The translations under genes and the position numbers were made by a program. Below are positions 2,168 to 29,386 of a stretch of DNA of 47,666 nt, piece after piece. The notes below the pieces were generated by a model that was not told where the DNA came from, searched no databases, and worked only from the letters and a program-made list of their open reading frames with translations. Numbering within the stretch: position 1 is the stretch's first letter; each line of letters starts with the position of its first letter. Source of the DNA: Nitrospira japonica (GTDB lineage Bacteria > Nitrospirota > Thermodesulfovibrionia > Thermodesulfovibrionales > SM23-35); contig DYFC01000030.1 of assembly GCA_020725385.1 (NCBI GenBank), positions 1-47,666 on the forward strand, given 5' to 3'.

Positions 2168-3862
2168 TTATAATAAATGTACTATTTTATTTCTACCACT
2201 CTTTTTTGCCTGATACATTGCATTATCTGCTCTGACAACAAAGCTTTTCATGTCATCATAAGGAGAAAGTTCTGTTAACCCAATACTAACAGTTTTTTTG
2301 ACAATTTCAAGTTCTCCATCAAGTGTAAAAGGATGAAATACAGTTTCTGAAACAGATTTGCGGATTCTTTCAGCAACAATAATTGCTTCATCATATTGAG
2401 TTTCAGGTAACAATATTGTAAATTCTTCACCGCCATAACGAAAAGCCATATCAATATCTCTTATACTTTTGCTTATTATATCAGCAATTCTTTTAAGTAC
2501 AAAATCTCCTTCCCAATGTCCATATCTGTCATTGAAATCCTTGAAAAAATCTATATCAATAAGCATTAAAGAAAGTTGTCTGTTATGTCTTTTTGCTCTT
2601 TCGATTTCTTTTACTATAATCGTGTAAAAATAACGTTGATTAAATAGTCCTGTCAGATCATCTGTGATAACAAGTCTTTTCAATTCAGCTTCAGCTTTTT
2701 TCCTTTCTGTAATATCCCTGAATGTAACAAGCACACCTGTTTTTCCTTCATAAGGAATTTGAGTGAGAAGCACTTCCATATGAAGACCTTTATTGTTCTT
2801 TGACAACATTCTTATTTCCAGTGGAGAATCAATTGATTTATCGCTTTCAAGTTTTTTTAGGTTTTCTGAAAATAATGCCCTGCTATCAGGATAGAGAAAT
2901 CTCAAAATGTCTTCTCCAAGCATATCTTTTTGATAATAGTCCAGTATTTTAAGAAGAGTAGGGTTAATGAATTTTATTATTCCATCCTGAATTATCATTA
3001 TTCCTTCAAGAGATTGTTCAACGAGTGTGCGGTATTTTAATTCTGATTCAACAAGAGCCCGGGATTTCTGTCTTAGCATATTTTTAAGGATAGTTATGTA
3101 ATCGGCTCTTAAATTTTTAATAATGTCGCTTTTTGTAATAATGCCGATTGAATCACCTTTATCATCGGTTATAATCAAACACCTTACCATATTTTCATCA
3201 ATTAATCTTGTTGCTTCATAAAGATTGATGTCTTTTGAAGCAGTAATTAATTTTGTATCCATTATTTCTGATATATATACAGGTGTTATATTTTCAGCAA
3301 TAGCTTTAGTAATATTTCTTTCAGTAATAATACCAATTGGTTTAGAATCTTTTTTTACAACTACACAACTTATTTTATTTTCGGACATCAAAGATATAGC
3401 TTTGGTTAAAGGTTCTTCTTCAGATACAGAGATAATAGTTCTATTCATTATCTGTTCAACTTTTTTCAGATTAACAAAGGAGTCTATTCTTAAATTTTTG
3501 ATAATATCTGTTTGGGTTACAATCCCTGTTACCTTGTGATTATTATCAACTACCACGAGTCGTCTTAAGCCGTTTATAACCATGAGATTTGCTATCTCCG
3601 GAATATCTGTATCTTCTGAAACAGCAATCACAGGACTTCTCATTACAGTTTTTAAATCTACTAAATTAAAGTCAATGTTATTACCCTTAAGATAAATAAT
3701 ATCTCTTTCTGTAAGTATCCCTTCTGGCTTGTTGTCTTTAACAATAACAATGCAACTAACATTGTTCTTATTCATTTTTATTATTGCTGATAAAAGTGTT
3801 TCATTTGGGGATAATGTTATGACATCTCTTGACATTATTGTGCTTACATTATCCAGTTCCAT
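2168..3862 (-). CDS. Diguanylate cyclase with four CBS domains and a PAS domain
   Basis: 564 residues, probably cytoplasmic with no membrane segment. Residues about 1-125 and 135-255 are two tandem CBS pairs (repeated ISCVVVKKDSKPIGIITERN-type units), which commonly bind adenine nucleotides. A PAS domain (about 270-390) ends in the usual FRDITERKKAEAELKRL linker. The GGDEF domain follows, with the catalytic GGEEF at 477-481. Five residues upstream is RDID, an RxxD inhibitory c-di-GMP site, so the enzyme should be active and product-inhibited. The family makes c-di-GMP from two GTP; energy-state control through the CBS domains is an inference. The start is fixed by AACGGAGGTCCG before the ATG. 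It is divergent from nifU, with 84 bases between. The PilZ protein at 25211-26491 is a possible effector in the same window. Confidence 0.92.
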   Translation of the reverse strand: MELDNVSTIMSRDVITLSPNETLLSAIIKMNKNNVSCIVIVKDNKPEGILTERDIIYLKGNNIDFNLVDLKTVMRSPVIAVSEDTDIPEIANLMVINGLRRLVVVDNNHKVTGIVTQTDIIKNLRIDSFVNLKKVEQIMNRTIISVSEEEPLTKAISLMSENKISCVVVKKDSKPIGIITERNITKAIAENITPVYISEIMDTKLITASKDINLYEATRLIDENMVRCLIITDDKGDSIGIITKSDIIKNLRADYITILKNMLRQKSRALVESELKYRTLVEQSLEGIMIIQDGIIKFINPTLLKILDYYQKDMLGEDILRFLYPDSRALFSENLKKLESDKSIDSPLEIRMLSKNNKGLHMEVLLTQIPYEGKTGVLVTFRDITERKKAEAELKRLVITDDLTGLFNQRYFYTIIVKEIERAKRHNRQLSLMLIDIDFFKDFNDRYGHWEGDFVLKRIADIISKSIRDIDMAFRYGGEEFTILLPETQYDEAIIVAERIRKSVSETVFHPFTLDGELEIVKKTVSIGLTELSPYDDMKSFVVRADNAMYQAKKSGRNKIVHLL

Positions 3863-10979: not shown

Positions 10980-11693
10980 TTATCCTGCTATAAAAGCAGG
11001 TTCCAGGTGATTATTTCGGGATGCGTATATTTTTGAAATATTTGCCGCTGCAAATTTATGGTATTTCTTAGGATCATCAATTACCAGATAAATTGTGCGG
11101 ACAAAATCAGAATTTAAGAGCTCTGCTTTTGGATATTTTGCTTTTAATTCAGCAAGTCTCTTTTGTGCGAGTTCAAGCATTTTTTCACGGTCTCCAAAAT
11201 TCATTGCTCCTGTGGGGCATGTTTTTACACATGCCGGAAGCATCCCTTCTTTTATCCTGTCGATGCACATTGTGCATTTTGCCATACCCTGTGTGTTTTT
11301 ATCCCAGCGTGGTATATCCCACGGACAGGCTTCCTTTATTTGTTTGAAATCAGCTTCTTTTACTTTTACTTTCGGATCATATAATACAGCTCCTGTTACC
11401 TCGTCTTGTATTATTGCTTTTACATTTATTGAGTCTGCTACCATTTTGCAGGGAGGGGTGATACAATGTCTGCATTGATCAGGGAAGAAATACCATACTG
11501 GCTTGCCATCTGATTCCATCTCATTGAATCTAACAAGTTTGAATGTAGCAGTTGAGAGATCTTCAGGGTTCTGATGATTACCTTTCTGAACAGTTTTGGT
11601 TGCAGGATTCATATTCCACTGCTTACATGCAATCTGGCAACCACGACATGCTGTGCATTTGGATGTATCTATGAAAAATGTTTTATCAGCCAT
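10980..11693 (-). CDS. fdhB: Formate dehydrogenase iron-sulfur (beta) subunit, periplasmic type
   Basis: 237 residues with the cysteine sets for four [4Fe-4S] clusters: CTACRGCQIACKQW near residue 13, CRHCITPPCKM, CPWD, CTMCIDR and CVKTCPTGA. It passes electrons from the catalytic subunit to an acceptor. It has no signal peptide, as expected for a subunit co-exported with a Tat partner. It also lacks the C-terminal membrane helix of E. coli FdnH, and no cytochrome b subunit follows. This fits the soluble periplasmic FdhAB type of sulfate reducers, which passes electrons to cytochrome c. It starts 15 bases after the fdhA stop. Confidence 0.92.
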   Translation of the reverse strand: MADKTFFIDTSKCTACRGCQIACKQWNMNPATKTVQKGNHQNPEDLSTATFKLVRFNEMESDGKPVWYFFPDQCRHCITPPCKMVADSINVKAIIQDEVTGAVLYDPKVKVKEADFKQIKEACPWDIPRWDKNTQGMAKCTMCIDRIKEGMLPACVKTCPTGAMNFGDREKMLELAQKRLAELKAKYPKAELLNSDFVRTIYLVIDDPKKYHKFAAANISKIYASRNNHLEPAFIAG

Positions 11694-11708: not shown

Positions 11709-14700
11709 TTACTTTTTTGCCTTTGCAGCAGGCTGTTTTGTTAATTTAGTAACATTTGCCATGAACGCTTTTGATTCAGGTATCATTGTGTTTGGGTCAC
11801 CTACAGTTGGAGTAAGAAGATTGGCGCTCTCGCCACCATCTTTAGGATGCAGCCATCCAAAATGCCATGGTAGCCCGATCTGGTGTACAGTCTGTCCAGC
11901 AATTACAAATGGTTTTAGTCTGTGTGTTACTATTGCAGTAGCTTCAAGTTTTCCTCTTTGGGTTTCTACCAAAACTTTTTCTCCATTCTCAATGCCCCTT
12001 AATTTTGCAAGCTCATGGCTAATTTCACAGAATACCTGAGGCTCAGCTTCAACAAGCCATGGAAGCCATCTTGTTAAAACTCCTGTCTGCCAGTGTTCTG
12101 TTACACGGTATGTTGTGCAGACAAAAGGATAACGCGGGTCACATGTTGCAAATGTATCTGGACCACCTTCAAATATTTTAACAACAGGGTTTATTCTTTG
12201 ATTTGACATCAAATTCTTCTCAATAGGGCATTCGAGTGGTTCATAATGTTCCGGAAATGGTCCATCTTTTAACCCAGGTCCAAATATTGATGCAACACCA
12301 TCTGGTTTCATTATAAATGGATAAACCCCTTCTGTTCCCATTGGCGGCGCAGGTCCATCCGGTACATCTCCTACCCACTTCTTATTCTCAGCATCCCATT
12401 TAAGTATCGCTCTCTTTGGATTTCTTGGATTTCCATCAAGATCAACAGATGCACGGTTATATATAATCCTTCTGTTTACAGGCCATGTCCATGACCATTG
12501 TGGATATAAGCCAAGTCCTGTTGGATCATCTTTCTTTCTTCTTGCTGCCATGTTACCTGCCTCTGTATAACTCGCTGAATATATCCAGTTGCCACATGAT
12601 GTTCTTCCATCATCAAGAAGATAAACAAAACTCGGTACAAGTGTGCCTTTCTTATAAGCCTTTTTGTCAACAGGATGTTCCGGTATATCCTCAAGGAAAT
12701 ATCCGTTTATCTCTTTTGCTACTGTATGAATATCAAATTTACCATTAGTCTCATAATCCCACTTTAGATTAAGAATCGGGTCAGGAAATACACCTTTTTG
12801 TTTCTTGTAAACAGCTTTCACTTTCTTCATTAGTTCATATATAATCTCGCCATCAGGCATTGCATCACCTGGAGGATTTGTGCATTTCCATCTCCATTGC
12901 ATCCAGCGTCCGCTATTAGATATACTTCCCTCTTTTTCCATAAAAGCAGCGCAAGGAAGCTGGAATACTTCTGTCTTAATCTTTTTTGGATCCATTCCAG
13001 GACCTTTCCAGAAAGAACCAGTTTCATTATCAAATACATTTACATTTACCATCCAGTCAAGTTTTGCCATTGCCTGACGTACTTTTCCTGCATTAGCACT
13101 TGAGCAGGCTGGATTCATGCCCCATGCAAAGAATCCTGTGAATTTGCCTTTATACATTTCATCGAAAAGATTAAGCCATGATGCATCCTGTGTTTTATCG
13201 AGTTTTGGTAGCCATGAATAACAAAAATCATTCTCTTTCTTTGCATGTTCTCCATAGAATGATTTCAGAAGACTTGCCAGATATTTTGGTCTGTTTTTCC
13301 ACCAGTTAACACTTCTCGGGTCTTTTGTTGATGGTGTTGTTTTATTGTAATCCTCCAGTGTTTGCCATTGTTCTCTTGGTGCGGGTATATAACCGGGTAT
13401 TATGTGGAACAATAAACCCTGGTCGGTTGACCCCTGAACATTTGATTCACCACGAAGCGCATTAATACCACCTCCAGCTATTCCCATATTCCCGAGCAAA
13501 CTTTGTATTATTGACATTGCACGAATGTTCTGAACGCCGACAGTATGCTGTGTCCATCCCATCGCATAAAGAACAGTGCCTGCTTTATCAGGTGTTGCAG
13601 TGGAAGCGTAAGCTTTGTAAACTTTTTCAAGGTCTTCCTGTGGTGTGCCGGTTATAGCAGTAACTTTCTCAAAGGTATATCTTGAGTAATGTTTCTTTAA
13701 AATCTGGAACACGCATCTTTCATGTTGAAGGGTCATGTCCCTTTTTGGTATTCCATTTTCGTCTTTTTCAAGAGCCCATGTGGATTGATCATAAGAACGT
13801 TTGTTTGGATCATAACCTGAAAAAAGACCGTCATCAAAATTATATTTAGGGTTGACTATAAAAGATGCGTTTGTATAATTCTTCACATAAAATTCATCAT
13901 AAAGATTGTTATCAAGAATATACTTTATCATTCCACCAAGAAATGCTATGTCTGTTCCTGATCTTAATCTTACAAATATGTCTGCTTTTGTTGATGTGCG
14001 TGTGTAACGAGGATCAACATGGATGAAAATAGCGCCTTTATCACGTGCTGCCTGTATCCATTTAAATGAGACAGGATGGTTTTCTGCGACATTACCACCC
14101 ATATTAAGAATTACATCTGCATTTCTGAAGTCAATATAATGATTTGTCATTGCACCGCGACCGAACGACTCTGCCAGAGCCGCAACAGTTGCGGAATGTC
14201 ATATTCGGGCCTGATGTTCGATGTAAACGAGACCCAGTGATCTGAGGAATTTTTGATAAAGCCAGCATTCTTCATTGTCCATTGCTGCGCTTCCAACCGA
14301 GGCTATACCATTACAGCGATTTACAACCTTGCCGTCAGCATTCTTTTCTGTGAAGCTTTTGTCACGGCTTTTCTTGATGTTTTCAGCTATTTTGTTTAAA
14401 GCCCATTCCCATGAAACCTCTTTCCATTTGTCACTATGAGGAGCACGATAACGGACTTTCTTGAGACGATTTTCGTTTACAGCAATCTGATAACTTGATG
14501 CGCCTTTTGCGCAAAGAGCGCCTTCGCTGATAGGATGATCAGGATCACCTTCAGCATTAATTACTTTGCCCTTTGTGTCTGTTGCTACCAGAATACCGCA
14601 GCCAACCGAACAGTAACAGCAAATAGTAGGTGTTTCTTTAGCACCTTTAATTCGCGACTCTGTTCTTAGTTCAGCAGCATAACTCTGAACAGGGCTTAAA

Positions 14701-14783
14701 TCAAATCCAAGCTGGCTCAGGGCGATACCCGCTGCGGTATAACTGGAGAGCTTAATAAAATCTCTCCTTGTTAATACCTTCAT
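11709..14783 (-). CDS. fdhA: Selenocysteine formate dehydrogenase catalytic subunit, Tat-exported
   Basis: 1024 residues when the in-frame UGA at 14201-14199 is read as selenocysteine (residue 195; E. coli FdnG has Sec at 196). The context HQARI-U-HSATVAAL, then FGRGAMTNH, is the formate dehydrogenase active site. The N-terminus has a twin-arginine signal TRRDFIK (5-11) with a hydrophobic stretch. A [4Fe-4S] site uses Cys55, Cys58, Cys62 and Cys91, and the molybdopterin domains follow. The enzyme oxidises formate to CO2 in the periplasm with Mo or W bis-MGD. Simple gene calling splits it at the UGA into 14199-14783 and 11709-14150. The ribosome binding site is AAAGGAGGAG, and a strong sigma70-like promoter lies at 14880-14908. 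Next in the operon are fdhB and fdhE. Confidence 0.95.
14161..14201 (-). promoter_or_regulatory. Candidate bacterial SECIS element, fdhA
   Basis: The UGA (14201-14199) is followed by a foldable segment. GUUGC lies at nucleotides 13-17 after the UGA, as in E. coli fdhF, with the loop beginning GG at 18-19 and GCA closing it. A U at position 15 can bulge, as in known SECIS hairpins. The stem is imperfect and weaker than that in the second formate dehydrogenase (34437-34477). Confidence 0.6.
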
Positions 14784-16828: not shown

Positions 16829-17795
16829 GATTGTCTCAACAGGTGCTTATGTTCCCGAAATAATCATGTCAAATTCGGATCTTGAAAAAATGGTTGATAC
16901 ATCGGATGAATGGATAACTGAAAGAACAGGAATTAAGGAAAGAAGAATAGCATCTAAAGAACAGGCAGCTTCGGATCTTGCCTATGAAGCATCAAAAATT
17001 GCGATTGAAAGAGCAGGGATTGTACCCGAAGACATTGATCTTATTATTGTTGCTACAATTTCAGGGGATATGCCTTTCCCTTCAACCGCATGTTTTTTAC
17101 AGGAAAAACTCGGTGCAATAAATGCTGCCGGTTTTGATGTCAATGCAACATGTTCTGGCTTCCTATATGCGTTACATATTGCAGATGGATTTATAAAATC
17201 TAACCTGCATAAAAGAATTCTCGTTGTTGGTTCAGAAGCTCTATCTAAGGTAACCGATTGGGAAGACCGTACAACATGTGTTTTATTTGGTGATGGCGCT
17301 GGCGCAGTTATTGTAGAGCCATCCGCAAATGAACGGGGGATAATTTCTACCCATATAAATTCTGATGGTCGCTTATGGGAATTAATTAATCTTCCCGGAG
17401 GTGGTTCAAGAAATCCTGCTTCTACTGAAACAATAAATAAACGTCTTCACTATATTAAAATGAAAGGCAATGAAACTTTCAAAGTAGCAGTAAGAACTCT
17501 TGAAGACCTTGTTGTGAAAACCCTTGAGGAAAACAATCTTGACTCGTCACAATTGGACTTACTTATTCCTCATCAGGCAAACATGAGAATAATCCAGGCA
17601 ACGGCTGATAGACTAAAAATACCTTTAGAAAGGGTTGTTGTTAACTTGCAGCAATATGGAAATACATCGGCAGCATCAATTCCAATAGCTCTTCATGAAG
17701 CAGTGGTCTCCGACAGGATTAAAGAAGGTGATTATATTCTTCTTGAAGCTTTTGGAGGAGGTCTTACATGGGCATCGGCATTAATAAAATGGTAA
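16815..17795 (+). CDS. fabH: 3-oxoacyl-ACP synthase III (FabH)
   Basis: 326 residues with the full catalytic triad: Cys113 in NATCSGF, His253 in IPHQANMRI and Asn283 in YGNTSAASIP. It condenses acetyl-CoA (or a branched starter) with malonyl-ACP to start fatty acid synthesis. The start inside the plsX end gives the conserved N-terminus MRRSRIVSTGAYVP. In many genomes fabD, fabG, acpP and fabF come next, but here the operon ends and converges on the histidine kinase gene, overlapping it by 15 bases. Confidence 0.96.
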   Translation: MRRSRIVSTGAYVPEIIMSNSDLEKMVDTSDEWITERTGIKERRIASKEQAASDLAYEASKIAIERAGIVPEDIDLIIVATISGDMPFPSTACFLQEKLGAINAAGFDVNATCSGFLYALHIADGFIKSNLHKRILVVGSEALSKVTDWEDRTTCVLFGDGAGAVIVEPSANERGIISTHINSDGRLWELINLPGGGSRNPASTETINKRLHYIKMKGNETFKVAVRTLEDLVVKTLEENNLDSSQLDLLIPHQANMRIIQATADRLKIPLERVVVNLQQYGNTSAASIPIALHEAVVSDRIKEGDYILLEAFGGGLTWASALIKW

Positions 17796-19913
17796 AGTTT
17801 TTTTATCCAGGTCAAGCAGATTTTTTACTGTAATAAGCATCTCGTTTTTTTCGAATGGTTTTTTTAGATATGCATCTATCATTAGACCAAGCTCATGAAG
17901 AGGTTTCTCCAGGTAACCTGAAATTGCTAATATTCTGATATCTTTTCTTATTTTTCTGAGATTTATTATAACTTCTTCACCATCCATTAAAGGCATCATA
18001 ATATCTGTTATGATAAGTTGTATATTTTTGTTCTGTTCTTTGAATAAATTTATAGCATTCATAGGATTATTTTCAGCAATAACAATATAACCGTGACTCT
18101 CAAGCAAATCTTTAATGAATAAAAGAACATCTTTGTCATCATCAATTAAAAGTATATTTCCAAACCCCTGCAATATTGGCTGGGTAAATTTTTTATACTG
18201 ATATGATATTTTCCCGGAAGCAGGAATATAAATATAAAAACATGTCCCTTTGCCGACCTCGCTGTCAACAGATACATAACCATTGTGATCTTTTACTATT
18301 CCATAAACTGTTGCCAGCCCCAGTCCTGTACCTTTCCCTTTTTCTTTAGTTGTAAAAAATGGGTCGAATATCTTCTGTCTGATTTCCTCCGGTATTCCTA
18401 TGCCTGTGTCAGAAACACTCATAACCACATATTTCCCCGGCGTAACGTATGTAGGGACATCGGATGATTTATTCTCAATTATTGTAGATTTTGTTTTAAT
18501 TTCAATCAATCCTCCATCAGGCATGGCATCTTTAGCATTGACAACAAGATTCATGATTACCTGTTCTATTTGATTGGGTTCTCCTTCTATAAAAGGAATA
18601 TTTTCATCCAGATTTATTTTTACTCCAATTCTTTTATCCAGTACACCATCAAAAAGTTTTGCGGAATCGTTAATAACATCATTGAGATTAAAAGGAACTT
18701 TCTCGGTTGAATCCCTTCTTGCAAAACTGAGAAGTTTAGATACCATTATCCCGGCTTTCCGGGAAGCTCCTTCAATATTTCTGACTCTTTTCTTTGAAAC
18801 TTCATCAAGCTTGCTGTATTCAAGCAATAACTCGGAATTCCCGAGTATCGCTGTTAAAATATTATTGAAATTGTGAGCTATTCCTCCGGCAAGAGCCCCG
18901 ATAGATTCCATTTTCTGGGAATGTATAAGCTGCTCCTGTATTCTTTTCTTTTCGGTTATATCTCTGCAAAAGTGAAGTATATGAATTTTACCATCAATAT
19001 CCAGAGCCCTTGCACTTATTTCAACAAATATTTTCTCGCCATCTTTTTTGAAATGAGTTGTTTCATAAAGAAGTGTTTCGCCGTTCAAAATCCTCTGTAT
19101 GCGTTCTTCTATTTTTTCTTTATTTTCTGAAGGTTCAAGCGATTCGATATTAGCATCTTTTAATGATTTAGATTCAAAACCATATGTCTCATAAAACTTA
19201 TTATTCACTGAAGTTATTTTTCCAGTTGGATCGGTAATAATAATTGCATCAGTAGCATTATCAAAAATTGACCTGTACCATGCCTCTGAAACTTTATAAG
19301 CTTTAGTCCTTTCCTGAACAAGATCTTCAAGTTCCTGATTCTTTATTGATAACTCATATTCAAGTGAGAGTTTTTTGATGAGCAACTTTTGGTTTACATA
19401 CCTCCAACCAATACTGCCTAATAATGCTGCCAATAGAAAAATATTATTGTTAATGAAGATTCTCATGTTGGTAATAGAATCAAGTAAAATAATAGGTATT
19501 ACATAAATGGCATAAATGAACACGTTCACAAAAGCTATATATTTTGCAGATATAGGTAAGAATCCTAATATAAAAACACTAAGAATTATCATCCCTGCAT
19601 AGTATGTAGATTGATGACCACCGAAAGATAAGATCATTAATTCAATCATTACTGCTGTTATTAACGGTGCAAAAAATATTATGATTTTTTGTATTGTTTC
19701 TTTGTTATATTTTTTATACAGAAAATAAATAATAATTGTTAAAGAAGCAGCTATTAATCTATAGATTAAAAATTTTATAAAATTTTCCGGGGTTACTAAA
19801 TAATCAAGAATGCAAAGAAATATATCAATAAATGCTCCGATAAGAAGAAGAATTGCACCAAGTGATCTTGTAAGTTCATAAACTTCTTTTTTTATATACT
19901 CCTGCTTACTCAT
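17781..19913 (-). CDS. Hybrid sensor histidine kinase with membrane domain, PAS and receiver
   Basis: 710 residues. Five or six hydrophobic segments fill residues about 15-170, followed by a coiled linker and a PAS domain (about 208-325, ending [10 protein letters not shown]). The HisKA box is [16 protein letters not shown] with phospho-acceptor His347. The HATPase has the G boxes [11 protein letters not shown] and [15 protein letters not shown]-terminal receiver has LLIDDDKD and phospho-acceptor Asp637 in [11 protein letters not shown], with KKPF after it. It senses an unknown signal at the membrane. It lies 48 bases downstream of the CrtI-like gene and could be part of the lipid cassette transcript. 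No Shine-Dalgarno is visible. The 3' end overlaps fabH by 15 bases. Confidence 0.92.
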
Positions 19914-19961: not shown

Positions 19962-21374
19962 TTATCTTTTAAAATTTTTAATGATTTTTTGAGCTGTTTC
20001 ATAACCAATGTATGTCACACCAGGAATACCAAAACCATGAGTTGTCCAGTGCCCTGTCATAAAAAGACCATCTATAAATGTGTTTTTGATAAAACCTGGT
20101 AAAACAAGTTGAGAAGTTATCCCGGCCCATCCAAATGAAGCGCCCTTATAATTAGATGTATATTTAAACAATGTATATGGTGTTGCAGCTTCTTTAAATT
20201 TAATATTGTCGGATATGTTTTCAATCGATAATTTTTCTATTTTGTCTAAAAGTAGATTCATTATCACCTTTTTATTCTCGGTCCAATACATTTTATTTTT
20301 AAATGAAGCATTAATAAAAAATGTCACGCTTTTTCTGTCGGGGAAAATATGCATCATTAAATTATTTATATCATTGAAAAATCCTTTTTTAGAATTAAAA
20401 TAATTTTTATCTAAATTATAATCAAATAGATACCAAATATTAGAACCTGGTTCAAAGTAATTGCCATAAAAAGGCTCTTTTAACCCTACATATATAATAA
20501 AAACCGAAAGAGAAGGGCTCATTTTTTTAATAGTATTTAAAAAAGTTTTATCAATAAATTCTTTACCTAACAATTTTAAATATGTTTGCCTCATATCGCA
20601 ATTAGATATAACATATTTTGAAGAAACCTGTTCATTATTTAATAGTCTAATTCCTAGTGCATTTTTACCATCACAAATAATTTTATTAACTTTAGAAGAC
20701 AATAAAAGTTCACCACCATTTTCTTTAAATATTTCTACAAGAGCATTAGCTAAATTTTGCATTCCTCCTTCAGGATAATATCCGCCGTCTAAAAGAAATT
20801 CTTTGAATAATTTTAATCCTAAGAAAGCAGATAACTTTGAAGGTGGCAAGCCGCTATTGCCAAATATTGGAAAAGATAGAACACTTTTAATTTTTGATGA
20901 AGAAAAAAAAGAATCCAATATTTGTGAGAAATTGCTTTTTCTGATGCTGATAGAGATATTCTTTTCTGAATTTATTAAAAAATTAAAAAAACGTTCTATA
21001 TTATAATTTTCATTAGGAAAAGCTTCCTGAAAATTCTTAATGGTATTATTGATATCAGAATAGAAAGAAACCTGTAAATCAGGTGTAATGATAATATCTG
21101 AAGGGTCACAGTGATAAATATTTATTTTTTCCTTTATCTTTAATTCATTAAATATTTTTCCTAAAGGTCCAAAACGCATTCCACCAAATGAATGAGCTGC
21201 TGCATCAAATGTGAATTCTCCTCTTTTGAACGAAGTACAATATCCGCCGGGTTTGTTATGTTGTTCTGCGATTAGTACTTTCATGCCTGCTTTTGCGAGG
21301 TAACAGCCACAGACAAGGCCACCAATTCCTGCGCCGATAATTATTGCATCGTATTCATTTGCACTTTTTTTCAT
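19962..21374 (-). CDS. Phytoene desaturase/carotenoid isomerase-like FAD oxidoreductase
   Basis: 470 residues. The N-terminus has the FAD-binding Rossmann motif AIIIGAGIGGLVCG followed by the acidic strand end LIAEQ and GGYCTSF. The C-terminus has the second FAD block GLFMTGHWTTHGFGIPGVTY. This is the CrtI/CrtISO/RetSat-like group, which desaturates, isomerises or saturates polyene chains. No phytoene synthase or other carotenoid gene is nearby. Instead it follows an ACP gene by 1 base and belongs to the KS-FabZ-KS-ACP cassette, so an acyl or polyene chain is a more likely substrate. It is strongly AT-rich, with many Lys, Asn and Ile. Confidence 0.8.
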   Translation of the reverse strand: MKKSANEYDAIIIGAGIGGLVCGCYLAKAGMKVLIAEQHNKPGGYCTSFKRGEFTFDAAAHSFGGMRFGPLGKIFNELKIKEKINIYHCDPSDIIITPDLQVSFYSDINNTIKNFQEAFPNENYNIERFFNFLINSEKNISISIRKSNFSQILDSFFSSSKIKSVLSFPIFGNSGLPPSKLSAFLGLKLFKEFLLDGGYYPEGGMQNLANALVEIFKENGGELLLSSKVNKIICDGKNALGIRLLNNEQVSSKYVISNCDMRQTYLKLLGKEFIDKTFLNTIKKMSPSLSVFIIYVGLKEPFYGNYFEPGSNIWYLFDYNLDKNYFNSKKGFFNDINNLMMHIFPDRKSVTFFINASFKNKMYWTENKKVIMNLLLDKIEKLSIENISDNIKFKEAATPYTLFKYTSNYKGASFGWAGITSQLVLPGFIKNTFIDGLFMTGHWTTHGFGIPGVTYIGYETAQKIIKNFKR

Positions 21375-21375
21375 T

Positions 21376-21633
21376 TTAGTTTTCCTTGTGATTTAACATT
21401 CCATGAACTAATTCAACTGCATCGTTCAGGGTTACAATCTTAGGTACGTCTTCATCTCTGACCGATATTTTATATTTTTTTTCTATTGCTACAGTGATTT
21501 CTATTGCTTTGATTGAGTCTATTTCAAGTTCATTTATTAAATTCGTTTCCGGTTTTATATCTTCTAAGTCATATCCTGACACATCTGATATTATTTCTCT
21601 TATTTCGTCTTCAAGTACTTTTTTATCAACCAT
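21376..21633 (-). CDS. Acyl carrier protein
   Basis: 85 residues, acidic, with the phosphopantetheine site ELEIDSIKAIEI (Ser40). The usual DSL is DSI here, as often seen in specialised ACPs rather than the housekeeping one. The helix pattern II..VSGYDLEDIKPETNLI is classical. It would carry the growing chain for the ketosynthases at 22300-25209. The ribosome binding site AAGGGGGAAG is strong. It ends 1 base before the oxidoreductase gene. The GIY-YIG insertion separates it from the ketosynthases upstream. Confidence 0.9.
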   Translation of the reverse strand: MVDKKVLEDEIREIISDVSGYDLEDIKPETNLINELEIDSIKAIEITVAIEKKYKISVRDEDVPKIVTLNDAVELVHGMLNHKEN

Positions 21634-21723: not shown

Positions 21724-21747
21724 GTCATTCCTGCGAAAGCAGGAATC
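21724..21747. repeat. GTCATTCC-type palindromic element, left copy
   Basis: ATTCCTGC-GAAA-GCAGGAAT is a perfect 8-bp stem with a 4-base loop (21727-21746), preceded by GTC and followed by CT. It is of the GTCATTCC...GGAATC class of dispersed extragenic palindromes. Its bases encode the last residues and stop codon of the GIY-YIG gene. Confidence 0.75.
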
Positions 21748-22042
21748 TAAATTCTTTACATATGGTTTTATACAAGTCTATCCAATAAGGATTATTTTTC
21801 TCAATCAATTGTAATTTCCAATCCCTTCGCCATTTCTTTATCTGTTTTTCTCTTGTAATAGCAGATTCTATAGATTCATGTATTTCATACCACACAAGTT
21901 TATGAACACCATATTTTTTGGTAAATCCTTCAACCAATCCATTTTTATGTTCATATACCCTTTTAATGATGTTAGATGTAACACCTATATACAGCGTTCC
22001 ATTGCGTTTACTGCAAAGAATATATACATAGTAGTTTTTCAT
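21725..22042 (-). CDS. GIY-YIG nuclease family protein (UPF0213-like)
   Basis: 105 residues with a single GIY-YIG domain: YYVYILCSKRNGTLYIGVT at the start, the catalytic arginine in NIIKRVYEHK, and the later ESAITREKQIKKWRRDWK block with the conserved glutamate region. Function in this small family is unclear, and a DNA nicking or mobile role is possible. It is bracketed by inverted copies of a palindromic repeat (21724-21747 and 22051-22080), and its last residues and stop are encoded by the left palindrome. It sits between the ketosynthase and ACP genes, which otherwise form one operon, and so looks like a later insertion. No ribosome binding site is visible. Confidence 0.85.
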   Translation of the reverse strand: MKNYYVYILCSKRNGTLYIGVTSNIIKRVYEHKNGLVEGFTKKYGVHKLVWYEIHESIESAITREKQIKKWRRDWKLQLIEKNNPYWIDLYKTICKEFRFLLSQE

Positions 22043-22299: not shown

Positions 22300-23511
22300 C
22301 TACTCACTATACTTTTTAAGAATAAGACAAGCATTATTTCCTCCAAAAGCGTATGAATTGTTTAAAGCAATATTAATTGTATGCTTTCTTGATTTATTCG
22401 GAACACAGTCAATATCGCATTCAGGATCAGGCGTTTCATAGTTAATTGTTGGTGGTATTTCATCATAAAATATTGCTAATGCGCATGTGACGGCTTCAAG
22501 GGCAGATGCTGCACCCATCGCATGGCCAAGCATAGATTTAATAGAACTTACAGGAATATCTTTATATCTGTCTCCAAATACTCTTTTAATAGCCAGACAT
22601 TCTGTCCTGTCATTGGCAATTGTGCCAGTGCCGTGAGCGCTTATGTAGTCAATATCTTCTTTTTTAACTCCTGAATTATTTAAGGCTTTTAACATACAAT
22701 TCTCAACACCATCAACTGAAGGAAGTGTCATGTGTCCGGCATCACAACTTAGACCATAACCTAAAACTTCTGCATAGATTCTGGCATTTCTTTTTAAGGC
22801 GGATTCAAGTTTTTCGAGTATAACAATTCCTGCACCTTCGGCAACCATCATGCCTTTTCTATTTTTATCAAAAGGCTGGCATTTCTCGGGAGCCACTGCT
22901 GAGAGTTGATTGAAACCTGTGAAGGCAACTCTTGAGAATGGATCAGAGCCACCTACAACCATAATGTCTGCTTTCCCGAGTTTAATTAGGTCAAATCCAT
23001 AGCCAATGGCATAATTTCCAGCAGAACATGCTGTACTAAACATTATTGAGGGTCCATTAAAGTAAAATAATTCTTCGATTATTGTAACAGTAGAATGAGG
23101 CGGTATTTGACATATAATTTTGTTGTCAATTTCAATATCTTTATTTATAAGAAATTCATTAATAATTTCAGTATTTTGTCCAGACCCAAGAGTTGTTCCG
23201 ATACATGTTCCAATTATAGTATTTTTATTTTCAGTGTCTATTTTTGAATCCTCGAGAGCTAGTCTTGTGGCGCACAAAGCAAACTCGGATGCACGGCTAT
23301 ATTTTTTTATATTTTCTTCAGAAAAATATTGTTCAAAACTAAAATCTTTTACCTGACCGCCGTTATGTGTAAAATGTTTTGATGTATCAAATGCAGTTAC
23401 AGAACTTATACCGGATTTTCCTGCAAGAAGGTTCTTCCAGAACTCCTGCCATCCGATACCTATTGATGAAACAACCCCTAATCCTGTTATCGCAACTCTT
23501 GTCTTATTCAT
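22300..23511 (-). CDS. Beta-ketoacyl-ACP synthase II-like (catalytically complete KS)
   Basis: 403 residues from the ATG at 23511; a GTG at 23520 would add three. The thiolase-fold catalytic set is complete: Cys162 in FSTACSAGNYAI, His293 in SAHGTGT, Lys325 and His330 in KSMLGHAMGAA. It condenses malonyl-ACP with an acyl chain. It overlaps the FabZ gene by 8 bases, so translation is coupled. The partner ketosynthase at 23977-25209 lacks both histidines, so the pair resembles the KS/chain-length-factor arrangement of type II polyketide or aryl polyene systems. Housekeeping FabF is a less likely identity, given the cassette context. Confidence 0.9.
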   Translation of the reverse strand: MNKTRVAITGLGVVSSIGIGWQEFWKNLLAGKSGISSVTAFDTSKHFTHNGGQVKDFSFEQYFSEENIKKYSRASEFALCATRLALEDSKIDTENKNTIIGTCIGTTLGSGQNTEIINEFLINKDIEIDNKIICQIPPHSTVTIIEELFYFNGPSIMFSTACSAGNYAIGYGFDLIKLGKADIMVVGGSDPFSRVAFTGFNQLSAVAPEKCQPFDKNRKGMMVAEGAGIVILEKLESALKRNARIYAEVLGYGLSCDAGHMTLPSVDGVENCMLKALNNSGVKKEDIDYISAHGTGTIANDRTECLAIKRVFGDRYKDIPVSSIKSMLGHAMGAASALEAVTCALAIFYDEIPPTINYETPDPECDIDCVPNKSRKHTINIALNNSYAFGGNNACLILKKYSE

Positions 23512-23941
23512 CTTGAACACTGAAAACTAATTCAGCCTCCGATACTTTTTTGTCTTCTACAAATGCTTCTCCTGATACAAAAGCTCCATTGGGAAGGGAT
23601 TTAACATTAACTACTTTAATCTTAATCTGATCACCCGGAACAACAGGATGATGAAACCGTGCTTTAACAGAGCCAAATAGATATATTTGTGGTTTCTCAT
23701 TTGGATTTTCTTTTGCTGATGCAAAAAGAATTATGGATGCCTGTGCCATTGCTTCAATAATAGCAGCACCGGGCATAATCGCTCTATCAGGGAAATGGCC
23801 TAAAAAGAAAATATCATTTCCCGATATGTTTTTGATTGCCACTGCGGATTTCCCGGGTTCAAGTTCAATAACTTTATCAATCATAATAAACGGAAATCTT
23901 TGGGGCAATATTTTCTTGATTTCTTCAAAACTCATTATCAT
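23504..23941 (-). CDS. 3-hydroxyacyl-ACP dehydratase, FabZ-like
   Basis: 145 residues, a complete hot-dog fold. The catalytic residues are His49 (FLGHFPDRAIMPG) and Glu63 (IIEAMAQAS), the standard FabZ pair. It dehydrates 3-hydroxyacyl-ACP to trans-2-enoyl-ACP, forming double bonds that could remain in a polyene. The ATG at 23941 has GGAGAG eight bases upstream and is preferred over the second ATG two codons later. It lies between the two ketosynthases and overlaps the downstream one. No ketoreductase is present in the cassette, so that step would have to come from the housekeeping FabG. Confidence 0.9.
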   Translation of the reverse strand: MIMSFEEIKKILPQRFPFIMIDKVIELEPGKSAVAIKNISGNDIFFLGHFPDRAIMPGAAIIEAMAQASIILFASAKENPNEKPQIYLFGSVKARFHHPVVPGDQIKIKVVNVKSLPNGAFVSGEAFVEDKKVSEAELVFSVQDE

Positions 23942-23976: not shown

Positions 23977-25209
23977 TCATGCATATTTGCTTATAATCAA
24001 TGCTGAATTATTACCATAAAAATCAGAAGACAATATAAGGATGTTTTTCAATTCTTTCTTCCTTGTCCCTTCTATAACATAATCAAGGTCACATTCAGGG
24101 TCTTTCTCTTTATAATTAACAGTCTGAGGAATCACACCATAATTCAAGGCTTCAATAGCAGAAGCACAGGCAAGTGCTCCACCGGCAGAATATGTCTCAC
24201 CGAGCATTGATTTTACCGCTGTTACTGGAATTTTATCTGCGTGTTCACCAAAAACTTTTTTTATAACATTTGTTTCAAGCAGGTCAAGCTCTTTTGAAGA
24301 ATTTGCGGATGAAAATATACAGTCTATGTCTTTCAAATCAAGACAGGCATCTTTAAGAGAAATTCTGATAGCATTTTCAAGCCCTTTTCCGCTGCATTTG
24401 AAATAACCTTCAGATGTATAATCAAAAGCATTTGCATATCCGGAAATATATCCAAGAATAGATGCATTTCTTCTTATTGCATGTTTTTCTTCTTCAAGAG
24501 CAATAACAGCAGAGCCTTCAGAAAAAATTATTCCATCCCTTCTTGCGTCGAAAGGACAACATCTTGTATCAGTTCCGTTACTTCCGGATAAACATCCGAA
24601 TGTGTGTAGTATTAAGAATGTATCCTCGCAAAGTTCTTCAACTGCTCCTGCAAAAACAATATCCGCTCTTGCCATACGAATAAAATCCGAAGCGTATGAA
24701 ATAGCATCTATTCCGGAGCAGCACCCTGTTGATATTGTTGTATTAAAACCCTTGATTTTGAACCGTATAGAAATTCTGCTTGCCGGTGAATTAATTACAG
24801 TATTTGGGAAAAAAGAAGGATTAACGTATCTTGGCCCGTCAATCAAACTTGCTCTATCAAATTCTGCTATGCTTTTTAAGCTTCCGAAGGTTGTACCAAT
24901 CGAAACGCCGATAGAATGTGTATTATCCTCTGTTATATTTATCTTGCTGTCATCAATAGCAAGTTTTGCAGCAGAGCAAACCAGTCTTGTGCTTCTATCC
25001 AATTCTCGCAGTCCCTTTTTTTCCAAAAAATTCAAAGGGTCAAAATCAGTTATTTCGCCTCCAATTTTAACAGGATACTTTGAAACATCAAACAACGTGA
25101 TTGGTTTAAAACAAGTTTTACCCTGAAAAAATGCATCCCGAAAAGTATTTCTTCCAATTCCAATTGGCGACAAAACACCTGTACCTGTAATTACAGCTTT
25201 TCTATTCAT
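23977..25209 (-). CDS. Degenerate beta-ketoacyl synthase (chain-length-factor-like)
   Basis: 410 residues, colinear with the neighbouring ketosynthase along its whole length. The active-site cysteine is kept (Cys163 in STGCCSG) and so is Lys333, but the two catalytic histidines are replaced. The SAHGTGT region reads FSSANSSK (His to Ser301), and the second His is Glu338 in KSMLGETY. Such a protein should not decarboxylate malonyl-ACP alone and is probably a structural or chain-length partner of KS 22300-23511. Classical chain-length factors instead lose the cysteine, so this is a different pattern. It starts 1 base after the PilZ-methyltransferase stop. Confidence 0.85.
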   Translation of the reverse strand: MNRKAVITGTGVLSPIGIGRNTFRDAFFQGKTCFKPITLFDVSKYPVKIGGEITDFDPLNFLEKKGLRELDRSTRLVCSAAKLAIDDSKINITEDNTHSIGVSIGTTFGSLKSIAEFDRASLIDGPRYVNPSFFPNTVINSPASRISIRFKIKGFNTTISTGCCSGIDAISYASDFIRMARADIVFAGAVEELCEDTFLILHTFGCLSGSNGTDTRCCPFDARRDGIIFSEGSAVIALEEEKHAIRRNASILGYISGYANAFDYTSEGYFKCSGKGLENAIRISLKDACLDLKDIDCIFSSANSSKELDLLETNVIKKVFGEHADKIPVTAVKSMLGETYSAGGALACASAIEALNYGVIPQTVNYKEKDPECDLDYVIEGTRKKELKNILILSSDFYGNNSALIISKYA

Positions 25210-25210
25210 G

Positions 25211-26491
25211 TTATTTCTTTATCAGATAAAAAACTATTAAACCTGTTTTTTCACGTTGTTCGGAAATTTGGTTTAATGGTATATTCGCTTTTGTAAAAAT
25301 ATCAACAAAATCCTCTTCTGTTCTCTGAAGGAATCCGTCCCAGTCAACAATCCAGTGATATTCCTGAGAACGATAGCGCATAGAATCTTTAAAGGATGTT
25401 ATCAGAACACCTCCTGGATTTAATAACTCATATAAAGCACTAAATAATTTCACCAGAAATTCTGATTCAAGATAATCAAATAATCCGACACTGTAAATTA
25501 TATCCTGTTTTCCAAATTCAGCCATATTTAGTTCATTATCAAACATTCTTATTGCATTATATTTTCTGAGAACTACCTGGTTTGAAAAAACAGGATTTAA
25601 ATTTGTGAATGAAAGTCTATTTGCTGCAAATGCGAGTGCATCATCATCAAGGTCTATGCATGTAATTTTTGTTCCGGACTTTTCAATTAAGCTTGAAAGT
25701 TCAAATACTTCACGACATGAGCCGCAAGCTATATTTAAAACTTTGGGTTTTTGTCTTTGGGATATTTCTTCTTTCAGAATATTCTTAAGCTCATTTAATC
25801 TATTTCTAACACCTGTACCGAGCGGCCATCCAAGACAATATAAGTCAAGATAATATCCGAACCCTTTTGATAAAGGTGTGTTTCGGTATATTGTCTCAAG
25901 AGTCTTATAATCTCCCTGATACCCTTGAGGCCATATTCTTGCTCTATTAATACAAAAGCTTTTTGAGAAGATTTTATTTGTTTTCTGGTGAAATCTTACT
26001 CTTGCATCCTTAATTATTTCTTCATCATTAACTGCAATCTCAAATAACCTGCAAGAATTTAGTACATCATTAAATGCATCTTCAATAGATGCCATTATAT
26101 CTTCTGGTTTTTCATTAGGATTATCACAACGCTTTTCAATTTCTTCAAGTCTCTTTATGAATATATCTGTAGCTTCATCAAGTTGTCTGATATTTTTCCC
26201 GTCAAGTTCAATGCCTGCCCTGTATCTGTCATTGTAACGAGCCGACCATCTAACAAATCCAGCAGTTTTATCAAAACCATTTTTGAACCAGAGCATATGT
26301 CCGGGTGTTAATGGATATTCTGTTTCTATACAAATGCCTGCTTCACTAATATTTAATGCTTTACCATTTAAGTCAATCCATTTGCGTTTTCTGTCTTCTT
26401 TTACGCTTAAAGAATAAGCAATAACTTCTGTAAAAGGTTTTCTCTCGAATCTTCTTAATTTCTCATATTGCATAGTTTTTGCATTCTGCAT
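25211..26491 (-). CDS. PilZ domain fused to class I SAM methyltransferase
   Basis: 426 residues. Residues about 11-115 form a PilZ domain with both c-di-GMP motifs, R13xxxR17 (RRFER) and NISEAG (47-52). A helical linker (about 130-245) leads to a Rossmann methyltransferase, with motif I VLNIACGSCREVFEL (251-265), acidic Asp280 at the end of strand 2, and SVGLFDYL further on. Related methyltransferases include PhcB-type makers of hydroxy-fatty-acid methyl esters, so an acyl substrate is plausible but unproven. It is the first gene of the KS2-fabZ-KS1 run, directly abutting KS2. The ribosome binding site GGGGGTAGAGAG is good. c-di-GMP control of activity is inferred from the domain. Confidence 0.85.
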   Translation of the reverse strand: MQNAKTMQYEKLRRFERKPFTEVIAYSLSVKEDRKRKWIDLNGKALNISEAGICIETEYPLTPGHMLWFKNGFDKTAGFVRWSARYNDRYRAGIELDGKNIRQLDEATDIFIKRLEEIEKRCDNPNEKPEDIMASIEDAFNDVLNSCRLFEIAVNDEEIIKDARVRFHQKTNKIFSKSFCINRARIWPQGYQGDYKTLETIYRNTPLSKGFGYYLDLYCLGWPLGTGVRNRLNELKNILKEEISQRQKPKVLNIACGSCREVFELSSLIEKSGTKITCIDLDDDALAFAANRLSFTNLNPVFSNQVVLRKYNAIRMFDNELNMAEFGKQDIIYSVGLFDYLESEFLVKLFSALYELLNPGGVLITSFKDSMRYRSQEYHWIVDWDGFLQRTEEDFVDIFTKANIPLNQISEQREKTGLIVFYLIKK

Positions 26492-26594: not shown

Positions 26595-27272
26595 TTATTT
26601 ATGAATTGAATATTTTTTAAATATTTTTTCTATTTTATCTTTATAGGCTAATGAAAAAAGTATAAAAACAATAGCGACACCAAGCAATATTGAAAACCTA
26701 TAATATTGGTGATGACGAATATAATCACCTCCTAATGTTAAAAGAACTGTTCCAAGAAATCTTCCTACGGTACTTATTATAAGAAATTCTTTTGTGCTTA
26801 AATGTCCGAGTCCGAGTATATAACAAAGGTAATCTTTTGGAAAACCCGGAATTAAAAAAAGAAGAAAAACAAGAAATGCTCCTTTATGGTGCAAAAGATA
26901 ATCGTAACGGTCAAGGGTTTCTTTTTTTACAAAGCGCTCTACAAAAGGTCTTCCAAGATGTCTTGATAGAGTAAAAGCTATCCATGAACCAATTGTAAGG
27001 CCTAAGGTTGATAAGAATATGCCAAGAAAAGTTCCATAAAGGAAACCTCCCATAAATCCGGTTACTTCACCGGGTATTGGAGAGATTATTACCTGGGAAG
27101 CTTGAAGAAGTACAAAACCAATAAAAGAAAGCGGTCCTAATGATTCAAGAAATGCTTTAATCTTTTCTTTACTAAGAAAAAAAGATATTAAACCAGTCTG
27201 ATATAAAATAAGTGTTGAACCTGCTACAATTGTAATCAGGATAAGTAATTTAAGCCATATCCTGTTTTTCAA
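26595..27272 (-). CDS. TVP38/TMEM64 (DedA-like) membrane protein
   Basis: 225 residues with about five or six hydrophobic segments. The family core is visible as ISPIPGEVTGFMGGFLYGT and, later, FLVFLLFLIPGFPKDYLCYILG, the reentrant-loop PG motifs of the SNARE-associated (DedA/VTT) domain. Relatives scramble or flip lipids or maintain the proton motive force. The start is TTG at 27272, with a stop codon immediately upstream in frame and GGAGG 13 bases upstream, so the spacing is unusually long. It follows the slipin gene by 22 bases on the same strand. Confidence 0.88.
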   Translation of the reverse strand: MKNRIWLKLLILITIVAGSTLILYQTGLISFFLSKEKIKAFLESLGPLSFIGFVLLQASQVIISPIPGEVTGFMGGFLYGTFLGIFLSTLGLTIGSWIAFTLSRHLGRPFVERFVKKETLDRYDYLLHHKGAFLVFLLFLIPGFPKDYLCYILGLGHLSTKEFLIISTVGRFLGTVLLTLGGDYIRHHQYYRFSILLGVAIVFILFSLAYKDKIEKIFKKYSIHK

Positions 27273-27294
27273 TTATTTTCGTACACCTCCGCTT

Positions 27295-28065
27295 TTAATC
27301 TTTTTTAGCCATCTCTATAAAAGGTTTTATCAGGTCTATCGGAACAGGGAAAATAATAGTTGAATTCTTTTCAGTAGCAATTTCTGTTAATGTCTGTAGA
27401 AATCTTAATTGGAGAGCTGATGGAGCGGTTGCGATTATATTTGCTGCTTCTGTTAATTTTTGTGATGCCTGAAACTCACCTTCTGCATGAATAATTTTTG
27501 CTCTTCTTTCACGTTCTGCTTCTGCCTGTTTTGCTATCGCTCTTAACATTTCAGCAGGTAAATCAACATTCTTGATTTCAACTGCAGTAACTTTAACTCC
27601 CCATGGTTCTGTCTGAAAATCTATTACCTTCTGGAGTTCAGCATTTATTTCTTCTCTTTTTGTTAAAAGGTCATCAAGCTGGCTTTGTCCGAGAATACTC
27701 CTTAGTGTTGTTTGTGCGATCTGGGATGTTGCAAAGTAATAATCTTCAACCTCTGTTATTGCTTTTATCGGGTCCATAACTCTGAAATATACAACAGCAT
27801 TTACTTTAACTGAAATATTATCTTTTGTAATAACATCCTGTGCAGGCACATCCATAGTTACTGTACGAAGGCTAACCTTTACTAATTTATCAACAACAGG
27901 AAGGATTATTACAAGTCCGGGACCTTTTACAGGTATAATTCTTCCGAGTCTGAAAACAACTCCTCTTTCATATTCCCTCAAAATTCTTATTGCACTTGAA
28001 AGAAAGTATACTATCAGGAATATAACAAAAATAAATCCCATGAATGATGGTGCAAATATTGACAT
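27295..28065 (-). CDS. Slipin (SPFH/stomatin-like membrane protein)
   Basis: 256 residues. One N-terminal membrane helix (about 8-27) is followed by the SPFH domain, opening [15 protein letters not shown] and including [20 protein letters not shown], then the Ala/Glu-rich helix [19 protein letters not shown]. Slipins form membrane microdomain scaffolds and are paired with NfeD-type proteases, as here, where nfeD ends 1 base before this gene starts. The complex probably acts in membrane quality control. Confidence 0.95.
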
Positions 28066-28066
28066 A

Positions 28067-29386
28067 TCAGCCTCCTTGTTTGCGGACTTTTAATTTTAGT
28101 CCCGAGACAAATTCTACTATAATTCGCTCTCCTTTTGCTATTGGTTCGTCAGAATAAGCTGACCAGATTTCTCCGTGAACCAATACTCTACCTGTATCTT
28201 TTGTTATATCAGTTTCCGCTGTCCCAATTAAACCTTTAAGTCCCTCGGACCCTGTAACAGGTTTTTGCTTTTGAGCTTTATAAGATAATCCTATTATAAT
28301 AGTGAAAAAAACTGCGGTAGCGATGACCGAAGGAAGAATAATTGCAAGAGAAAGTTTCATAAATGGTGCAGGTGATTCAAAAAGCATGAGCGAACCTATA
28401 AACATGGAAATGATTCCTCCAATTGTTAAAACACCATGTGAAACAATTTTGATTTCAAGAAGAAAGAATATGATTGCAAGTATAATCAGAAGAACGCCTG
28501 CGTAATTTACAGGCAATGTCTGGAATGAGTAAAAAGCAAGTATCAAACATATTCCACCTAAAACTCCCGGAAAGATGGAACCGGGATTTGTAAGCTCAAA
28601 GAAAAGTCCGTAAAAACCAAGAAGCATTAAAATATAAGCCACATTTGGATCTGATATTAAATTTAAAATCTTATGACGCAGTCCCGCTTCTTCTCTGATA
28701 ACAATAGAATTTTTTGTCTGAAGAATCTTATCTCCGGAGATTGTTTTTACTTTTTTTCCATCAATATCATTTAGTAAAGTATTTAAATCTTTTGCAACAA
28801 TATCTATAACATTTAGTTTTAGGGCATCAACTTCTGTTGATGAGATACTTTTCCTAACAGCATCTTCTGCCCATTTTACGTTCCTGCCTCTCTGCTCGGC
28901 AATGGATTTTATGTAAGCAACAGCATCATTGGTAGCTTTTTCAGCCATTGTTTTGTCCATTTTATCACCAATACCTACAGGATGGGCAGCTCCAATATTT
29001 GTTCCTGGAGACATTGCAGCTATATGTGCTGCGATTGTTATAAAAGCTCCAGCAGATGCAGCTCTGCTCCCGCTTGGAGAAACATATACAACTATAGGTA
29101 CTCTACTATTAATTATTTCTTTAACTATTGTTCTCATGCTTGCATCGAGACCACCTGGTGTGTCAAGCTCGATAACAAATGCTTCCAAATTTTTATCATT
29201 GGCTTTTTTAATGCTTTTTTGTATGAATTCAGCAGATACAGGATTTATCACACCACTGATAGTTATAACCATAACCTCTCTGTTAACTTTGTCTGAATTT
29301 GCGCTCAATAGATAAGGAAAAGCAAAAAAACAGACGATTGGTATTAACAGAGTAAATTTAAATATATAATTGAAATTCCTGCTCAT
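28067..29386 (-). CDS. NfeD-family membrane serine protease (long form)
   Basis: 439 residues. A signal peptide or anchor (10-30) is followed by a ClpP-like domain with [11 protein letters not shown] and the nucleophile Ser111 in [12 protein letters not shown]; the Lys partner is probably in [12 protein letters not shown]. Then come four or five membrane helices (about 245-375) and a C-terminal OB-fold NfeD domain beginning [10 protein letters not shown]. The long form is known to cut stomatin C-termini in archaea. It is tightly coupled with the slipin gene. The protease domain should face the periplasm. Confidence 0.94.

Follow-up and report, generated by a model that had tools for sequence, protein, structure and literature searches.

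A PilZ–methyltransferase fusion and its linked six-helix hybrid histidine kinase in Nitrospirota: a possible c-di-GMP-responsive lipid-signal synthase/receptor pair

Why a c-di-GMP receptor domain should be joined to a methyltransferase, and which molecule such an enzyme would methylate, are the questions raised by the first gene of an operon on a Nitrospirota contig (DYFC01000030.1), whose entire analysed stretch of 47,666 nucleotides is referred to here as the window. A model's reading of this DNA from the letters alone, called here the sequence-only reading, had described a PilZ domain fused to a methyltransferase and had suggested second-messenger control over the methylation of an acyl product. 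The best reading in our view, to which we give a probability of roughly 0.4, is that the fusion and a histidine kinase encoded in the same operon form a lipid-signal synthase/receptor pair analogous to PhcB/PhcS, in which the synthase would receive an input from c-di-GMP.

Table 1. Coordinates of the fusion gene, its domains and motifs, and the other operon genes in the window.
Feature	Position	Strand	Basis
PilZ–methyltransferase fusion	25211..26491	-	ORF, Pfam, AF2 model, 12 canonical-PilZ homologs
PilZ domain, residues 13-96 (beta barrel 18-96)	26204..26455	-	Pfam, AF2 strands, orthologs
c-di-GMP motif 1, R13RFER17 (predicted)	26441..26455	-	Sequence; RxxxR in 12/12 canonical fusions
c-di-GMP motif 2, N47ISEAG52 (predicted)	26336..26353	-	Sequence; [DN]xSxxG in 12/12 canonical fusions
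Helical cap (157-244) and class I methyltransferase Rossmann domain (250-426)	25214..26023	-	Pfam, AF2, fold match 3OCJ
KAS2, chain-length-factor-like	23977..25209	-	Both catalytic His missing; 21 relatives compared
FabZ-like 3-hydroxyacyl-ACP dehydratase	23504..23941	-	NCBIfam 145.3 bits, cut-off 113
KAS1 ketosynthase, intact Cys-His-His	22300..23520	-	NCBIfam, catalytic-residue check
Acyl carrier protein	21376..21633	-	NCBIfam; phosphopantetheine-site motif DSI
CrtI/phytoene-desaturase-like FAD oxidoreductase	19962..21374	-	Pfam amine oxidase 74.4 bits; crtI_fam 138 bits (below cut-off)
Hybrid histidine kinase: 6-TM MASE8-like sensor, PAS, HisKA, HATPase, receiver	17781..19913	-	Pfam, model, co-occurrence
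6-TM sensor domain of kinase (residues 1-215)	19269..19913	-	Pfam MASE8, model

The open reading frame (426 residues from its ATG), the Pfam matches, and a confident AlphaFold2 model agree that PilZ and methyltransferase are parts of one protein, as the sequence-only reading had it. The structure prediction for which that reading had called returned a PilZ barrel, a helical linker, and a class I methyltransferase (mean pLDDT 89.9, pTM 0.80, 40-sequence alignment), with the parts laid out as in Table 1, helices at residues 98-154 between barrel and cap, and pLDDT below 50 at residues 1-14 only. The methyltransferase exceeds the Pfam cut-offs for Methyltransf_12 (36 bits) and Methyltransf_25 (30.9 bits), and it has the Rossmann fold, the glycine-rich motif I, and the acidic residue at the end of strand 2 that mark class I SAM-dependent methyltransferases. 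Motif I, earlier described as full, reads NIACGSC and includes G257, which is invariant in the family alignment together with the acidic D280 and with G190, G193, D194, R231, Y333, S334, and G336. Curated NCBIfam names such as CpaM, BioC, and daptide methyltransferase were also considered; all scored far under their cut-offs and none was adopted.

The PilZ domain of the window protein lies slightly below the curated Pfam cut-off (20.7 versus 22.5 bits), ortholog domains exceed it at 29.4 and 25.1 bits, and in a more distant group the score reaches 52.6 bits. Both c-di-GMP motifs are intact, as had been claimed, and they are kept in every one of the 12 canonical PilZ fusions, which comprise the window protein's family and three outlying loci (L050, L051, and L066) and which diverge to about 45% identity, with RxxxR and [DN]xSxxG exactly 29 residues apart in each. 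The motifs of a single protein are weak evidence, because shuffling the 107-residue N-terminus produced both at a suitable spacing in 1.4% of trials, and their conservation across the fusions is the stronger argument. The host genome has 15 GGDEF matches over the cut-off. A c-di-GMP input to the fusion is thus predicted with support from the conserved motifs, the modeled PilZ barrel, and the GGDEF proteins of the genome, and the nucleotide would bind at the two motifs. A protein with four CBS domains, a PAS domain, and a GGDEF domain is encoded in the same window (2168-3862, minus strand); this diguanylate cyclase is a possible nucleotide-sensing source of c-di-GMP. An Rfam scan of the window found no riboswitch.

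The N-terminus of this enzyme family is exchangeable. Canonical PilZ, PilZ with a zinc ribbon, a second PilZ group, a cNMP-binding-like type, and no domain at all (a class set by length and alignment, which may include wrongly called starts) are distributed over the tree of the methyltransferase region in a way that needs at least 8-9 changes. About half of the orthologs are without any PilZ, so c-di-GMP is apparently not needed for the core function of the enzyme. At one locus (L065:8377-9843), a cNMP-binding-like domain takes the place of PilZ on a methyltransferase homolog (Pfam 26.8 bits versus a cut-off of 27.5). Swapping of this kind fits a regulatory role for the region, and since the PilZ module is replaceable and missing in many orthologs, c-di-GMP control is, judging from these comparisons, a lineage-specific add-on. 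The c-di-GMP input that the sequence-only reading had proposed for the fusion is supported by the motifs, the barrel, and the GGDEF proteins.

For the enzyme half, a Foldseek comparison of the AF2 model with the PDB puts 3OCJ first (E 6.5e-13), a match that mainly spans the methyltransferase half at about 15% identity, and the first two matches of the family profile in the PDB are 1WZN and 3OCJ. The latter is the B. parapertussis ortholog of the fatty-acid methyltransferase FmtB of Bordetella, which has itself been modeled on the templates 1WZN and 3OCJ, and the crystal holds a molecule, most likely palmitate, in its all-helical cap (PMC5426589). Overproduction of FmtB raises the methyl-ester fatty acids of the cell unless the SAM-binding Asp-Tyr is mutated; the activity is known from methyl-ester levels in cells, the purified enzyme having given none (PMC5426589). 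The fusion shares with FmtB the Rossmann methyltransferase and the all-helical cap, and at so low an identity the resemblance of the predicted structure is one of likeness, not orthology. FmtB differs in having no PilZ, in being membrane-associated with a hydrophobic N-terminal segment, and in having no reported kinase partner, whereas the operon of the fusion encodes one. Another relative, matching residues 95-426 at 27.7%, makes up the C-terminal domain of a polyketide synthase from an Enterobacter plasmid, where it follows KS and ACP domains, and in an alignment it has the signature PxGYxGD...IYSxGxxDY in common with the fusion. Given the fold match to an FmtB ortholog, this relative at the end of a polyketide synthase, and the KS, CLF, FabZ, and ACP genes next to the fusion, the methyltransferase is likely to act on an acyl chain, probably at its carboxyl end. 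The earlier suggestion of an acyl substrate is thereby supported, with a hydroxy-fatty-acid methyl ester as a candidate product only.

The operon runs on the minus strand from the PilZ–methyltransferase gene through KAS2, FabZ, KAS1, a GIY-YIG open reading frame, ACP, and the CrtI-like gene to the hybrid kinase. The acyl-chain gene that had been placed one base from the fusion is indeed there, with its ATG at 25209, but it does not encode an ordinary acyl-chain enzyme: the protein is a chain-length-factor-like KAS that lacks the catalytic histidines of the FabF type. Because of this loss and because most of the 21 relatives have Phe at the catalytic-Cys position, we read KAS2 as the CLF member of a KS/CLF pair. 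The operon can be compared with a known class, the KS/CLF-based type II polyketide or polyene pathways; it resembles them in its intact KS and CLF-like KAS, here with FabZ and ACP, and differs from them in adding a CrtI-like oxidoreductase and the PilZ–methyltransferase. The GIY-YIG nuclease-domain frame between KAS1 and ACP (21725-22042, minus strand; Pfam 65.4 bits) seems to have been inserted into the operon, because the relative L044 has its KAS1 and ACP genes nearly side by side. Several relatives have an extra SDR/FabG gene in the order methyltransferase, SDR/FabG, KAS2, and at L070:3683-4987, a radical-SAM-like frame (judged by eye) is inserted between the ACP and CrtI-like genes. Directly upstream of the fusion and on the same strand are VTT/DedA-like, Band-7, and NfeD genes (26595-29386, minus strand), which also adjoin the methyltransferase at L048, L050, and L054, cassette-free loci included. 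Many orthologs have no acyl genes as neighbors, so these genes are only a candidate source of the substrate. The acyl cassette was considered as the main partner of the methyltransferase and was dropped once methyltransferase–kinase pairs without it were found.

The hybrid kinase at the end of the operon had been overlooked in the sequence-only reading, as had the KS/CLF cassette and the replaceability of PilZ. Its sensor domain is modeled with a pLDDT of 93.4 as six long helices. Sequence and fold searches of this sensor against the PDB gave no significant match (best E 0.02), and its weak matches are to ImcA and adenylyl cyclases, in their 6-TM parts; the 6-TM design of CqsS is the same as that of adenylate cyclase anchors (PMC4821796). 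Relatives were gathered from about 200 genomes drawn from the phylum, many of which are fragmented. Among these, the sensor domain occurs in 27 of the 28 that have a strong methyltransferase match versus 9 of the 170 without (Fisher 1.7e-24, in a test that ignores shared ancestry), and in two of these nine exceptions (G184 and G207) a divergent methyltransferase directly adjoins the kinase. In all 23 same-contig pairs, both genes lie on one strand with the kinase downstream of the methyltransferase, and 12 of these pairs have a spacing of 9-188 bp and no acyl cassette. The cassette-free pairs that we examined have unrelated, varied genes on both sides, and L050 is a bare pair, a canonical PilZ–methyltransferase followed directly by the kinase. 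The kinase, rather than the acyl cassette, is the tightly linked partner of the methyltransferase, since the cassette comes and goes across relatives and the kinase persists. No response regulator gene adjoins the kinase, although the kinase has a receiver fused to it.

A contig scan with the single protein, which finds close relatives only, yielded one near relative, L003 (84% identity to the window protein), which comes from a Nitrospirae MAG. Distant relatives occur on plasmids, beside a histidine kinase and a response regulator in Pseudanabaena (L100:4977-7596) and beside an EAL-domain gene in Rhizobium etli (L101:2415-5714). Elsewhere in the window, the gene for a formate-dehydrogenase-like molybdopterin oxidoreductase (11709-14783, minus strand) has an in-frame TGA at residue 195 (context HQARI-U-HSATV) that is likely read through to give a selenoprotein, and an iron-sulfur subunit is encoded downstream of it (10980-11693).

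Among known signalling systems, the closest in logic is that of Ralstonia, where the methyltransferase PhcB makes 3-hydroxy fatty-acid methyl esters that are sensed by PhcS, a kinase of the same operon (PMC10653808, PMC11960443). Here, too, a SAM-dependent methyltransferase and a sensor histidine kinase share an operon, and an acyl methyl ester would be the expected signal. The two differ in that a c-di-GMP domain is fused to the putative synthase here, whereas the annotated domain of PhcB is the methyltransferase, with the N-terminal R22 outside it (PMC6989110); in that the kinase here is a hybrid with its own receiver, whereas Phc has separate PhcR and PhcQ genes, none of which type follows the kinase in the minimal loci examined; and in that a KS/CLF cassette is often inserted here. 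The fusion and kinase would most likely work in the manner of Phc, a likeness drawn from gene layout and proposed logic. CqsA/CqsS and LqsA/LqsS also have the synthase of a lipophilic signal encoded next to a membrane histidine kinase (PMC3285556), and in Vibrio, where CqsA supplies CqsS, a kinase with a 6-TM sensor stands beside the synthase gene as it does in this operon (PMC3285556, PMC4821796). CqsA and LqsA make alpha-hydroxyketones and are not methyltransferases, LqsA being PLP-dependent (PMC10653808), and they are likened to the fusion by layout. On BcsA and Alg44, PilZ with RxxxR and DxSxxG is a c-di-GMP switch on a biosynthetic protein (PMC12564702), in exopolysaccharide synthesis rather than on a methyltransferase. 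Our literature search found no papers on PilZ–methyltransferase fusions or on methyl-ester signalling in Nitrospirota, and no PilZ–methyltransferase effector is named in the available portion of a 2025 review.

If the pair operates as we propose, the SAM-dependent methyltransferase would methylate an acyl or polyketide chain at its carboxyl end. Here the KS/CLF–FabZ–ACP–CrtI cassette of the operon may supply that chain, and in cassette-free orthologs, ordinary fatty-acid intermediates would serve as substrate. The 6-TM domain of the kinase would sense the resulting methyl ester as a lipophilic signal. We infer that PilZ binds c-di-GMP via R13xxxR17 and N47xSxxG52, and the helical linker would then pass on the c-di-GMP state by raising or lowering methyltransferase activity, with the output of signal weighted thereby.

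Other explanations have to be weighed against this signalling pair. The methyltransferase could be a tailoring enzyme that caps the product of the cassette (a lipid or pigment resembling a polyene) by turning it into a methyl ester, in which case the kinase would regulate the cluster, PilZ would tie its output to the biofilm state, and no signal would pass between cells. Such a role would suit the operon that the methyltransferase shares with the KS/CLF cassette, both in the family of the window protein and in several further families, as well as the relative that ends a polyketide synthase. The methyltransferase and kinase are, however, paired without the cassette in at least 12 loci; the association with the kinase is therefore older, or stronger, than that with the pathway, and we place the tailoring role on the unlikely side of possible. 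The tight linkage to a sensor kinase, taken with a sub-threshold CheR match (21.9 bits, Pfam cut-off 27), would also agree with a methyltransferase whose target is a protein, perhaps the kinase, and whose role, under the control of PilZ, is feedback or adaptation of the CheR kind. This seems very improbable when fold and profile matches favor a fatty-acid enzyme, the neighboring genes build acyl chains, and a relative is found within a polyketide synthase.

A different objection would leave the enzyme as it is and take away its regulation, with PilZ having lost c-di-GMP binding and persisting as a docking or membrane-association module only. The Pfam score of the window domain and the readiness with which orthologs dispense with PilZ are what one would expect of such a module, whereas the strict retention of both motifs in all the canonical fusions, amid surroundings so diverged, is not, and we hold this loss to be improbable. 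The signalling pair with c-di-GMP input is the reading that we carry forward.

Extended to the family, it would describe a modular quorum-sensing system of Nitrospirota in which the synthase carries interchangeable second-messenger receptors (PilZ for c-di-GMP, possibly a cNMP-binding-like domain for cyclic nucleotides) that gate the production of a lipid methyl ester, the signal to which a hybrid kinase of the MASE8 type responds; this generalization is tentative, with the odds against it though not heavily so. Links between c-di-GMP and quorum sensing usually run through transcription or through signal receptors that alter c-di-GMP levels. A c-di-GMP receptor fused directly to a putative signal synthase would, if the reading is true, be a short-circuit between the two. 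A mostly uncultured phylum would gain a candidate system for cell-cell signalling, and MASE8-type 6-TM kinases would gain a candidate class of ligand.
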